From positions 124,001-188,000 of the forward strand of contig SADC01000153.1 of assembly GCA_004194705.1 (NCBI GenBank): DNA of 64,000 bases, in the 5' to 3' direction. Positions 15,296-19,671 of this stretch are shown here, in pieces. The notes under the pieces are model-generated. The model made no database searches. It was not told where the DNA came from and saw nothing but the letters and a program-made list of their open reading frames with translations. Source of the DNA: Ditylenchus dipsaci. Its lineage: Eukaryota > Nematoda > Chromadorea > Rhabditida > Anguinidae. Every line of letters starts with the position of its first letter. Within the stretch, counting starts at the first letter, position 1. The position numbers and the translations under genes were made by a program.

Positions 15296-18238
15296 AGGGC
15301 CCTTGCCGAGAAAATTTGTAAGGCACTTGTTCTCCAATGATCACCAGGCTTCAGCCTCAAATACAGCAGCTAATTTATCGGGACTTGGAGCTAAATCTTT
15401 GAGGGCTTGGATTGCTTTCATCTCCTTCAAAATATTAGTAAAATGTATATACATTCTCCACATTGGTCCATGTATTATGTCAAGGAACAAAAATTGAACT
15501 TACCACTGATTTCTCATTCTGCTGAAAAATTTATTATGTGAGCTCAAAAAATTGCGGCACTTGTGCACCCCGGGATGTTTCTTCCTTGTACCTCCTTCTT
15601 ATATTGACTGAAAATTGTGTTTTAATGCCCTTGCGTGCCCTTGCGTGCCCTTGCTTCAGGCTTAGGGGTAGGCCAGCGTCTATTTCCAGGGACTATAAAT
15701 TCTCTTACGCTTTTTTCCGGGCTCTAGGATATATTCCATAGGCTTTGGGTTAAAGCACTATTCACAGTTGATAGAAGAAAGGAGCACCTAGGTGCACAAG
15801 CTCCGAAACTTCCCCGGATAAAAAAAAAGACGCCGCTTACCTACAGAACTTTTGAATTTTCTTGATTGTTTGTGATAGTTGTTTCTATGTTGAGGTGAAA
15901 AGCGGATATACCTTTGGCATCTAGGCACTGGAACATTACGCCGCAATTAAAACAAACAACGGCGTAACGCCTGCATTTGTTAGTAGTTGTTAAAATATAT
16001 ACAATGAATTGTTCTAAACTATTTTCAGTGAATTTTTTTATTTAAACAGTATAATGAATAAGGTTTACATGTAAAGTTTTATATGAAAGATGGCTAAAGC
16101 TAAAAAATTGCAAAAGCATCGAGAGAAATTTTTTTCTATGAAAATTAAACGTCGATATTTAAATTTTTTGGCGTTCAATAAACGCCGGCTAAACGCCGAC
16201 GTTTAGCCGACGTTCCTAATTAATGAAAACAAACGCCGGCTGCCTGGCGTCAGAACAATCCTGAGTGTACTTCAGTATATCAGCTCTTTGCCAAAATAAG
16301 GGATTTTTTGCCTTGGTTTCGCTTTTGATTTTTTGTAATTTTTAGACTTAGGCGCATGTTAGGACAGACTTGGACATAAGACTAAAATAGTTTGAAAACC
16401 ATCCTAAAAAACACTAGCTTACCCTTACTTGAGCATTAAAAGTGCTAAAAAACAGCAGGAAGACCGAGGCAAAAAACAACCTTATTTGAGGACAAGGCCA
16501 GTTGATCTCTAAATGACTAAATGTTATGTTCTGTTATATGTTCTGCTTTTTATTGGTAATTATTAATTAGAAAAACCACTTGCTGAACGTTTTTAAGAAT
16601 GGCTCGAGTATCATTATCCTAAAAAAGCGAAAAATGTAGAAACCTTGATAGTTTTATAAGTTATGAAAATTTCAATTTCAAACTTATTTTTCATAACAGT
16701 AATTCATATAAAACAAGGATAAAGCTTTTTTATCCAATAGAAAAAGGGGTGCGTAGACGTTTAGGGGATTTTGTGACAAATGTCACAAAATCCACTAAAC
16801 GTCTTAACAGAACGCCAAGTTTGTACACATTCAAATTCATTCTTTTTAATGCACAGCCGTTTTCTGTGTTTGCTCTCCTAATTTTTCTCTTGAAGTCTCT
16901 TTTTGAGTCCTTTGATAAATTTTTACTAATTTATGGAGGCTAGGTATCATCGCTCAGGTGGAAGTGCTTAGGTAGTGGTACTTGGGTGGTGGTAGATTGT
17001 AGTTTCTAGGTGGTTGTACCTTAGTGGCAGTACTTATTTAGCAGTATCCAAGTTGTATATTAGACTATTTTTCGCAGTGCATCTGACTATGTGGGCAGAT
17101 AGACCATCTGGATGTCCCATGGACCAACTGAACCAGGTAGTCGTCCACTTGGATCAAATTTTTTTAATGTTTTCCGGGTTTCAAAACCTGTTTTCTGCAC
17201 TAATTCAAGCATTCTGAAGATAGTTGACAGTACTCAAATTATGTTTTGCAAGATTTACGAAAACTGTAAAAATACCATGTAAACGTAATTTCACTACTGT
17301 TAAACCATCTTTAGAATGCTTTAGTTAGTGCAGAAAACAATTTTTGGAGCTGAAAAACGTAAAAAAAATTCGATCCAAGTGGATGACCACTTGGTTTAGT
17401 TGGTGCATGGATTATTCAGTAAAACTAAGGTTAAATTTTAGAAAAACATGCATTAAAATTCTCTTAACGTTTTTATCTTATTTCAGCCAATTTAGGTTGA
17501 TATCCATTTGATCAGCTGGTACCCATTTCAGATTTTGGAGACCAAATGGGTAAAATCACAATTTTTGGTTTTACAAACCAATATTCGCTGACCAAATGAT
17601 CGAGGACCAAATGACCGGAGACCAAATGCCATCTAGTGCCAAAAGATACCGAATAACACGTAAAGGAACTTTGTAGTTGTTTTTGTGTCAAAGACCTTCT
17701 TATTCCAACTTTTTCTTCTCGTACCCTTCCTTTCTCCAGGTTCCTATAGTGTTCTCCCAGTAAAATTCTTCTTAATTACATTCATAGTGGTTAAGAGGTT
17801 ATAAGAGGTTATGGTCTGGTAGTTATACCATTAGTGGTCTTCATCAGATATCAGTGCCTAGGTGGCCCAATCCTGATGGTAATGCGATGGTACCCAGATG
17901 GAAAAACTTAACCAAACCCAAACCTGGAAAGCAGAAATTTCTTAAAAGTAAAAAATAATATACTTTTCCAACTTAAATTGTGTGAGGAATAAGGTTTGTT
18001 AGGACCAAGATCAAAATTTCACCCACGCAAACCCCAAAACGTGTGGTGGTTACCTCTTGGTCAGGTGGATATCCACCTGGATGGCCTACAAAATTAAAAT
18101 CTCTTAAGAACAAAAAATAAACTATTTTTTCTAATTTAAAATTATGTGAGGGATTGGGCCTGTTAAAACCTAGAAAGAAAACAGTTCCGAAATTATCTAA
18201 AAAACAAGATGAAAAAAGACCACGTCCAATTGCATAAC

Positions 18239-18244
18239 TTTATT
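18239..18244 (-). terminator. Poly(A) signal of the RPL11 pseudogene
   Basis: AATAAA on the minus strand 54 bp after the RPL11 stop codon. The captured segment therefore includes the gene's 3' end. Confidence 0.6.
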
Positions 18245-18297
18245 CCAACAACAACATGCGGGATATCAACAATTCAAATAACGCTTTAACGCTTGCG

Positions 18298-19011
18298 CTA
18301 ACCTCCTCCTTTGCGAGCTTTTTTCGGCTTGGGCGGCAATATCACTCCATCATACTTCTGCCTCGTCCTTGCCACAACGATGAGATGGACCCTGAAAATG
18401 AGGGCCATATATACAGATCGCTTAGACTAACCACAAAAATTACATACCACACGACCCTGAGCTCTGCGACGCTTAGCCACTCGACGACCAGCACGGTCAA
18501 GCACCACGTAGAAGTCCATTTCCTAGATCCCAATCGACGGGTCATACTTGATTCCCGAATCGATGTGCTCCTGAATGCCAAAGCCAAAGTTGCCTGTGTC
18601 CGAAAAGTTCTTACGATAGAGTTCGTATTCTTTGACCTGGTGGTAAAAAGTTAGGGAATAAAACATTGAATAAAGGCAAACCTTCGATCCGCAATCGATC
18701 ATTTCCTCAGCTTTCGGCCCTCGAACGGTGCAGTGGACGGAGATCTCTCTATACGACGACGAGCGGACTGTGTATCGAGCTCAGGAGAGAACCGGCGTTT
18801 GACCTGTCAACTGTTCCAGCACCTGAAATAGAGCAAATAGACGATCATAGATGTTATTTTAAGAAAGATGAGATACCTTTGCAGCTCGTTTTAGTCTGTC
18901 ACCAGATTCGCCAGCGCAGATATTGAGGCACAGCTTTTGGATCTTCAGATCTCGCATTGGGTTGGCCAACTTCTTTTCCTTTACTTTAGCGATTTGCTCA
19001 GCTTCACCCAT
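18298..19011 (-). pseudogene. rpl-11: Ribosomal protein uL5 (RPL11) pseudogene, introns retained
   Basis: RPL11 is a large-subunit protein at the 5S rRNA-binding central protuberance. Four exons on the minus strand have correct splice sites: 19011-18877, 18822-18682, 18636-18448 and 18391-18298. Recognisable blocks are KLCLNICAGESGDRL in exon 1, VLEQLTGQTPV and VHCTVRGPKAEE in exon 2, NFSDTGNFGFGIQEH and KYDPSIGI in exon 3, and KYDGVILPPKPKK in exon 4. The total of about 186 codons is full length for eukaryotic RPL11. It is dead: in-frame TGA at 18783-18781, in-frame TAG in exon 3 (at the Tyr of GIYG), a loss of about three codons after TVRS, and a frame-changing deletion in exon 4. An acceptor (ATTTCAG) sits 12 bp before the ATG, as for a 5' UTR intron or trans-splice site. 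Retained introns mean it was copied as DNA, not from mRNA. Confidence 0.95.
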
Positions 19012-19671
19012 CTTTCTTGCTTTCTGAAATTGAGGAGTACAGTTAGCAATCATACCATAATTAACGCATATAAAATCATAACAAGCTGATATTTCACAGC
19101 AAGAACTTGACTTGGGAATTTACTGTGGGGGAATTTACCGTGGTGGGAATTTACCGTGGGGAATTTACCGTCGCCCCGTATAACACGGTTCTTACGCAAT
19201 TAGACTGAAAAAAATTGCAAAAAAATCAGCAGGGGGGACCAAGGCAAAATTAGCAGTTCGCCCCTTTTCGGACAAATGTCCAAAAGAGGGCGAAACGTCT
19301 ATGCACCGAAAAATTAAGAGAGCAAACATAGAAACCGGCTGTGCAAAAAAAATGAATTTGAATGTGTACAAACTTGGCGTTCTGTTAACACGTTTAGGGA
19401 TTTTGTGACATTTGTCACAAAATCCCCTAAACGCCCCTATGCCAGAAAAAGGCCTACCAGCGCATTACACTGCAAATAAAGCGGGGACCAGCAATTTAGC
19501 AAAAATCGTTGTTGTTTTCACTTGTCTTAACTCAAATCTGATATTTATGACTTTATACTACTTTTAAAGAGTATGCAGAAATTTTTCGTCAGATCAGATA
19601 GAACGTTGATAAAAAGCCTTAATTGTAGTGTAACGCGCTGGTATGCCCCTCTAAAAGCGCAAATCCTTTTT

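Follow-up and report, generated by a model that had tools for sequence, protein, structure and literature searches.

A stretch of 64,000 nucleotides from the nematode Ditylenchus dipsaci (contig SADC01000153.1 of assembly GCA_004194705.1, positions 124,001 to 188,000; hereafter the window) contains what is very probably a non-autonomous, likely Mutator-like element (MULE) of the Pack-MULE kind. Its cargo is an RPL11 pseudogene with introns, and transposase-bearing elements with the same ends are its likely mover in trans. The searches below covered 226,978,389 bases in 1,359 contigs; C and L numbers are our own handles for contigs and loci. The ~135-bp terminal inverted repeats (TIRs) and the 9-bp target duplication AGAAAAAGG given in a preliminary description of the window were both recovered, the TIR arms (16758-16887 vs. 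19308-19433) being 93% identical over 130 bp and the duplication exact on both sides (Table 1). The outer part of each element end is a palindrome of ~50 bp. The flanks of the element recur free of it at ~1190-1640, and the joined flanks match there at 437/446 positions with 3 gaps, one of which is an additional G at the junction. The empty site that had been called exact, at 1426-1434, is thus an unoccupied paralogous site, 15 kb from the element, that is near-exact.

Ends, copies and candidate transposase

We counted left ends by means of the first 46 bases of the left TIR, allowing up to three mismatches. This 46-mer has 37 matches genome-wide and 0 in the reversed control, which excludes the chance origin of the RPL11 element structure. 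In a search with the left TIR, all of the scored candidates (40 of 310) matched over most of its length. Two main classes of elements have these ends, one bearing transposase-like exons and the other RPL11, and the RPL11 element and the transposase elements have only the ends in common. The possibility raised in the preliminary description, that the TIR occurs only in the window, does not hold: it stands at many places in the genome, with other cargo and, at most insertions, a target duplication of their own.

The RPL11 cargo is present in 20 near-full-length copies at 93-100% identity, plus fragments (37/37 candidates scored). Thirteen copies were recovered with both ends, and in all 13 the left TIR is followed by repeat filler, minus-strand RPL11, an end of a second TIR family (family B, as distinct from the outer family-A ends) and the right TIR, in this order; the remainder are truncated, have insertions or extend beyond the retrieved stretch. 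This common internal order is best explained by one early capture followed by spread. Among the 13, target duplications are 9/9 in eight copies, 8/9 in one, 8 bp long in one and absent in three, and the eight perfect duplications all differ from each other. Seven other elements with these ends have duplications of 9/9 in three, 8/9 in two, 8 bp in one and none in one, and control pairs of mispaired ends gave 0/380 at 9/9 and 2/380 at 8/9 or better. When 19 left flanks of RPL11 copies were compared (17 by BLAST, two short flanks over 28 bp only), the tandem pair in C1132 was the only one alike, leaving 18 sites; among 16 right flanks, again only the C1132 pair was alike at the junction. The RPL11 element is therefore found at no fewer than 18 genomic places, and the same junctions at different target sites in the 13 two-ended copies indicate that it moved as a unit. 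One further RPL11 element (C1105, ~54388-58660; L011 and L041) measures 4,273 bp and has additional inserted sequence.

Transposase-like exons lie between the same ends in C1245 (L058), an element of 3,613 bp with the duplication AAAAAAACC on both sides (9/9), and in C973, which is 98.7% identical to C1245. Deletion forms with such exons are found in C1158 (duplication 8/9), C1287 and C1326. The query for the transposase core was joined from predicted exons; so composed, it matches the Pfam MULE profile (PF10551) over positions 4-98 of 99 (E = 5.6e-4), and of six loci in this genome that are PF10551-positive, tblastn aligns the composite query with two at E < 1e-3 (best 9.6e-6). The sole protein returned from a large protein search was a UniRef protein of D. 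dipsaci that aligns with half of the query at 42% identity. With moderate confidence, we regard the core as a MULE transposase, and the elements that bear it are the likely mover of the RPL11 element in trans. A FLYWCH zinc finger before the MULE domain, the mark of the Phantom subclass, has no Pfam match, and a weak RYYR-CCHC match in the query (E = 0.0089) is below the Pfam cut-off. The last ~150 residues of the C1245 transposase, which by eye look like an OTU-protease-like C-terminal domain, also have no Pfam match, and this assignment was dropped.

The captured genes

On the minus strand, the RPL11 cargo consists of four exons separated by GT-AG introns, together with an AATAAA signal. The translation of the window copy, with X at stops, matches Pfam Ribosomal_L5 (63 bits, cut-off 34.9; E = 3.1e-17) and Ribosomal_L5_C (53.5 bits, cut-off 27.8). 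In the C1302 copy, joining the four exons gives 199 codons, the terminal stop counted; three of the internal codons are stops, and no frameshift occurs. Stop motifs recur among the 20 aligned copies (exon 2: 20/20; exon 3: 16/20; exon 4: 17/20, the remaining three, window copy included, having a deletion there). Diversity is nearly equal at the first, second and third codon positions (0.0155, 0.0146 and 0.0192), and is not lower in exons than in introns (0.0165 vs. 0.0114). Judged by its sequence, the RPL11 cargo is a pseudogene. We infer from the common stop motifs, the near-equal codon-position diversity and the exon-intron comparison that the gene was dead before its spread and has drifted since; the first two of these also rule out a living RPL11 gene in the element. 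The exons, introns and poly(A) signal of the preliminary description stand, with the correction that the gene is a pseudogene.

Since four exons and three introns are kept, RPL11 was captured as DNA, and nearly the entire transcribed unit lies inside the element, from an acceptor-like TTTCAG before the ATG to AATAAA. The TTTCAG, 12 nt before the ATG, is a probable trans-splice acceptor. The earlier proposal of a MULE-type capture of DNA in a nematode is supported by the kept introns and by ends common to transposase-like elements. We propose a single capture, at the DNA level, of a second rpl-11 paralog, which came to lie between two TIRs; template switching or gap repair is the probable mechanism. 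The gene would have died before the spread, and passive amplification by the transposase of the family in trans would then have followed.

Another full-length rpl-11 locus, C878, has exons 71-82% identical to the cargo. It lacks the third intron of the cargo and has a different intron instead; these partly differing intron positions rule it out as the origin of the cargo and make it at most a paralog of the parent. No match to the element TIRs was found in the 4.3 kb examined at C878. The capture boundaries are only partly fixed because an intact parent with the intron layout of the cargo was not found. RPL11 probably came from a second rpl-11 paralog that is lost or unassembled. A dispersed set of ten matches to the 3′ half of RPL11 is 76-83% identical to the cargo (Table 1). 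The four examined keep their introns, have other sequence fused upstream and yielded no family-A ends; the different upstream sequence and the absence of the exon-3 stop motif (4/4) rule out that this set derives from the element.

A membrane-protein gene forms a second cargo, with four copies (C848, C1160, C244 and C1043). Two of them were recovered with both ends: the C848 element of 2,408 bp, with the duplication GAGAAAATG (9/9), and C1160, with an 8-bp duplication. C848 has the ends and a 45-bp piece in common with the transposase elements. The exact end motif is absent from the C244 stretch examined and occurs once in C1043. The cargo is 92% identical over 971 bp to C1340, where 3.2 kb gave no BLAST match to the ends and 0/6 end motifs; C1340 is likely the source of the cargo rather than a stripped copy. 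With two 48-bp introns removed, the C1160 copy encodes 182/182 residues of the UniProt protein A0A915EI75, and large parts of the D. dipsaci gene models A0A915E8P1 and A0A915DAY0 are encoded in second-cargo copies (L077 in C1160, L074 in C244, L075 in C1043). A MARVEL domain is only a UniRef label of A0A915EI75, Pfam finding none, and it was discarded. The end residues of A0A915EI75 differ from the open frame of C848, which continues further; this could reflect truncation of the C1160 copy or an assembly error there. Between the C1160 copy and C1340, third codon positions differ at 11/181 sites and first and second positions together at 5/359, and this concentration at third positions suggests that the source was a constrained gene. 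A bolder reading, which we consider unlikely, is that the MULE family is a repeated shuttle of whole genes. It would have packaged near-complete genes with their introns at least twice, each reaching from around the acceptor site before the start codon to shortly beyond the poly(A) signal, and one membrane-protein gene would still be working and expressed in the transposon.

Alternative explanations

A complete family-B terminus (GGTGCATAGACG) adjoins the right family-A TIR directly on its inner side, at a position where the transposase-bearing element has other sequence. The family-B stretch recurs as inverted-end pairs around short elements, and 8-bp duplications were seen by eye in two of the three examined (C1351 and C160). 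RPL11 may have travelled in family B before family A, or the captured stretch may have brought the family-B end with it. In the former case, family B would have packaged RPL11, and its element would have inserted into a family-A MULE and been left with one end before family A spread it. This is possible, though we hold it doubtful: the mate of the family-B end was not found within the element, and no RPL11 copy bounded by family B alone was met, no systematic search for one having been made. Membership in another cut-and-paste superfamily (Foldback, P or hAT type) would suit the palindromic ends and the subthreshold Pfam score. It is quite unlikely, however, since the weak MULE match spans nearly the entire profile, the core can be aligned with two PF10551-positive loci in this genome, and duplications of 9 bp are in keeping with MULEs (PMC3169594 and PMC6446971).

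Two further explanations were considered. An ordinary dispersed or segmental duplication of rpl-11, with native flanks that happen to be inverted repeats, would agree with the 3′-half set, without these TIRs in the four examined, and with the tandem C1132 pair with common flanks, but it is very improbable given that the same ends surround transposase-like exons and unrelated cargo, that most insertions have their own target duplications and that the window copy has an unoccupied site. The preliminary description had itself considered that RPL11 similarity might continue through the TIRs at the native locus; such a confusion of native flanks with TIRs is refuted by the family of ends, by the differing flanks of the copies and by C878, with no TIR match in its 4.3 kb. 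Ribosomal protein genes frequently yield retrocopies, and an RPL11 retrocopy could have inserted into a transposon; this is hardly credible, and retroposition is refuted by the three introns kept in the aligned copies, the window copy having no poly(A) tract at the gene end.

Several points weigh against a Pack-MULE moved in trans by transposase-bearing relatives. Several of the 20 copies are truncated or without both ends covered, and target duplications are lacking in 3/13 RPL11 copies and in the transposase element C973. The MULE score of the core is 20.7 bits, below the Pfam cut-off of 27.6 (19.2 bits with a longer query); four of the six PF10551-positive loci have no core match at E < 1e-3 by tblastn; and the UniRef relative of the core is without any Pfam domain. 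In the assembly, C1245 has interrupted frames, so that it is at most a candidate for an autonomous copy. The full MULE with the same TIR sought in the preliminary description is represented by transposase-like exons in C1245 and C973, with a subthreshold score and interrupted frames. No intact rpl-11 parent with the intron layout of the cargo was found (protein search, 79/79 candidates scored; cargo search, 37/37). The second MULE-like terminus inside may make the element composite rather than a simple capture. Finally, the published D. dipsaci assembly (227,234,012 bp in 1,394 scaffolds) is a PacBio assembly larger than the flow-cytometry size (PMC6929663), so that small frameshifts and some allelic copies are expected, and copies without distinguishing flanks could be allelic. 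We nevertheless retain the Pack-MULE with its RPL11 pseudogene as the reading of the element.

Related elements and feature coordinates

Plant Pack-MULEs are reportedly (from work of Jiang and colleagues in 2004) MULE ends around host gene sequence, without transposase and with capture at the DNA level. They carry mostly gene fragments in plant hosts, whereas the elements described here carry near-whole genes in a nematode. Plants have many such gene-carrying elements and animals a few reported ones; the kind is already known in animals.

The preliminary description knew of no comparable case, but MULE-borne gene fragments have been published from animals. Muta1 of Aedes aegypti is an animal MULE with a known transposase, and ~20% of its derivatives align with host genes, which its authors compared with Pack-MULEs (Liu and Wessler 2017, PMC5225508); their example is a gene fragment of 276 bp, whereas here four exons, introns and a poly(A) signal are found in 20 near-full-length copies. 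Ssk-FB4 of Drosophila melanogaster, which its authors term a Pack-MULE, has nearly a whole gene between long TIRs, 9-10 bp duplications and several loci (Tan et al. 2021, PMC8277862). It differs in having no known transposase, three loci, and coding copies with signs of positive selection, whereas the RPL11 here is dead and same-end transposase-like elements exist. That paper reports that none of its 100 animal reference genomes had a Pack-MULE. Closer in host, Tm1 of Meloidogyne has a MULE (Phantom) transposase, mostly 9-bp duplications, composite ends and the Cg-1 gene inside, and was compared with Pack-MULEs by its authors (Gross and Williamson 2011, PMC3169594); its acquired host sequence is reported to be a histone-hairpin motif rather than an exon-intron housekeeping gene, and its end sequence is different. 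Turmoil-1 of Caenorhabditis elegans is likewise a nematode DNA transposon with captured exon-intron pieces, but it belongs to the Harbinger superfamily, has gene pieces inside its TIRs, and is known from a single complete copy plus eight fragments (Sela et al. 2008, PMC2572040). A gene-carrying MULE has also been suggested in Nematostella (PMC9842752).

In the open-licence literature, we found neither an RPL11-carrying MULE nor a Pack-MULE in Ditylenchus. Unusual features here are genes that are near-whole, the copy number, a single candidate partner for two cargos, and an end of a second family nested inside. One nematode genome has two near-whole-gene cargos in the same ends (20 near-full-length copies and four copies) beside transposase-bearing elements, and animal gene capture becomes testable because the same genome contains a likely source locus, the copies and a candidate transposase. 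There is also a warning for gene annotators, at least one UniProt protein of D. dipsaci (A0A915EI75) being encoded inside such an element.

Table 1. Positions of the element, its parts and related sequences (window coordinates unless a C number is given)
Feature	Position	Strand	Remark
Whole element	16748..19443		2,696 bp, GGTGCGTAGACG...CCCCTATGCC; same ends in further copies
Left target site duplication AGAAAAAGG	16739..16747		9/9 identical to right copy
Right target site duplication AGAAAAAGG	19444..19452		exact
Left TIR	16748..16887	+	outer ~50 bp (16755-16804) palindromic in itself
Right TIR	19308..19443	-	
~193-bp stretch common to transposase-bearing elements	16749..16941	+	91-92% identical
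Filler, largely high-copy dispersed repeat	16942..18235		present in the 13 two-ended RPL11 copies
AATAAA poly(A) signal of captured gene	18239..18244	-	kept in 20 aligned copies
RPL11 exon 4	18286..18391	-	small deletion in window copy removes exon-4 stop
RPL11 exon 3	18448..18636	-	TAG stop 18523-18525
RPL11 exon 2	18682..18822	-	TGA 18781-18783; motif in 20/20 aligned copies
RPL11 exon 1	18877..19011	-	start codon at 19011
TTTCAG acceptor-like site	19024..19029	-	12 nt before ATG; from sequence
Nested terminus of second TIR family (GGTGCATAGACG...)	19179..19307	-	outermost bases by eye
Unoccupied target-site copy in paralogous copy of flanks	1426..1434		437/446 identical
3′-half RPL11 matches	C229:38511-39006, C634:5062-5556, C349:565512-566008, C42:202194-202686		
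Further 3′-half RPL11 matches	C1318, C673 (two), C86, C189, C309		
Short family-B elements	L069 (C853), L070 (C1351), L071 (C160)		palindromic ends (GGTGCATAGACG / GGTAAAGGGACG)

A search with the filler gave partial matches of ~77-84% elsewhere (40 scored among 5,441 first-look candidates). A small inverted repeat stands beside the insertion site (19451-19482 / 19616-19647, 84% complementary), with the same flank at ~1435-1632, and is perhaps another miniature element. Short tandem arrays are present at 2041-2190 and 19668-19800, with a run of AACAGCGCC-type units (by eye) and TTTTTTGCATCAGA units of ~20 bp.

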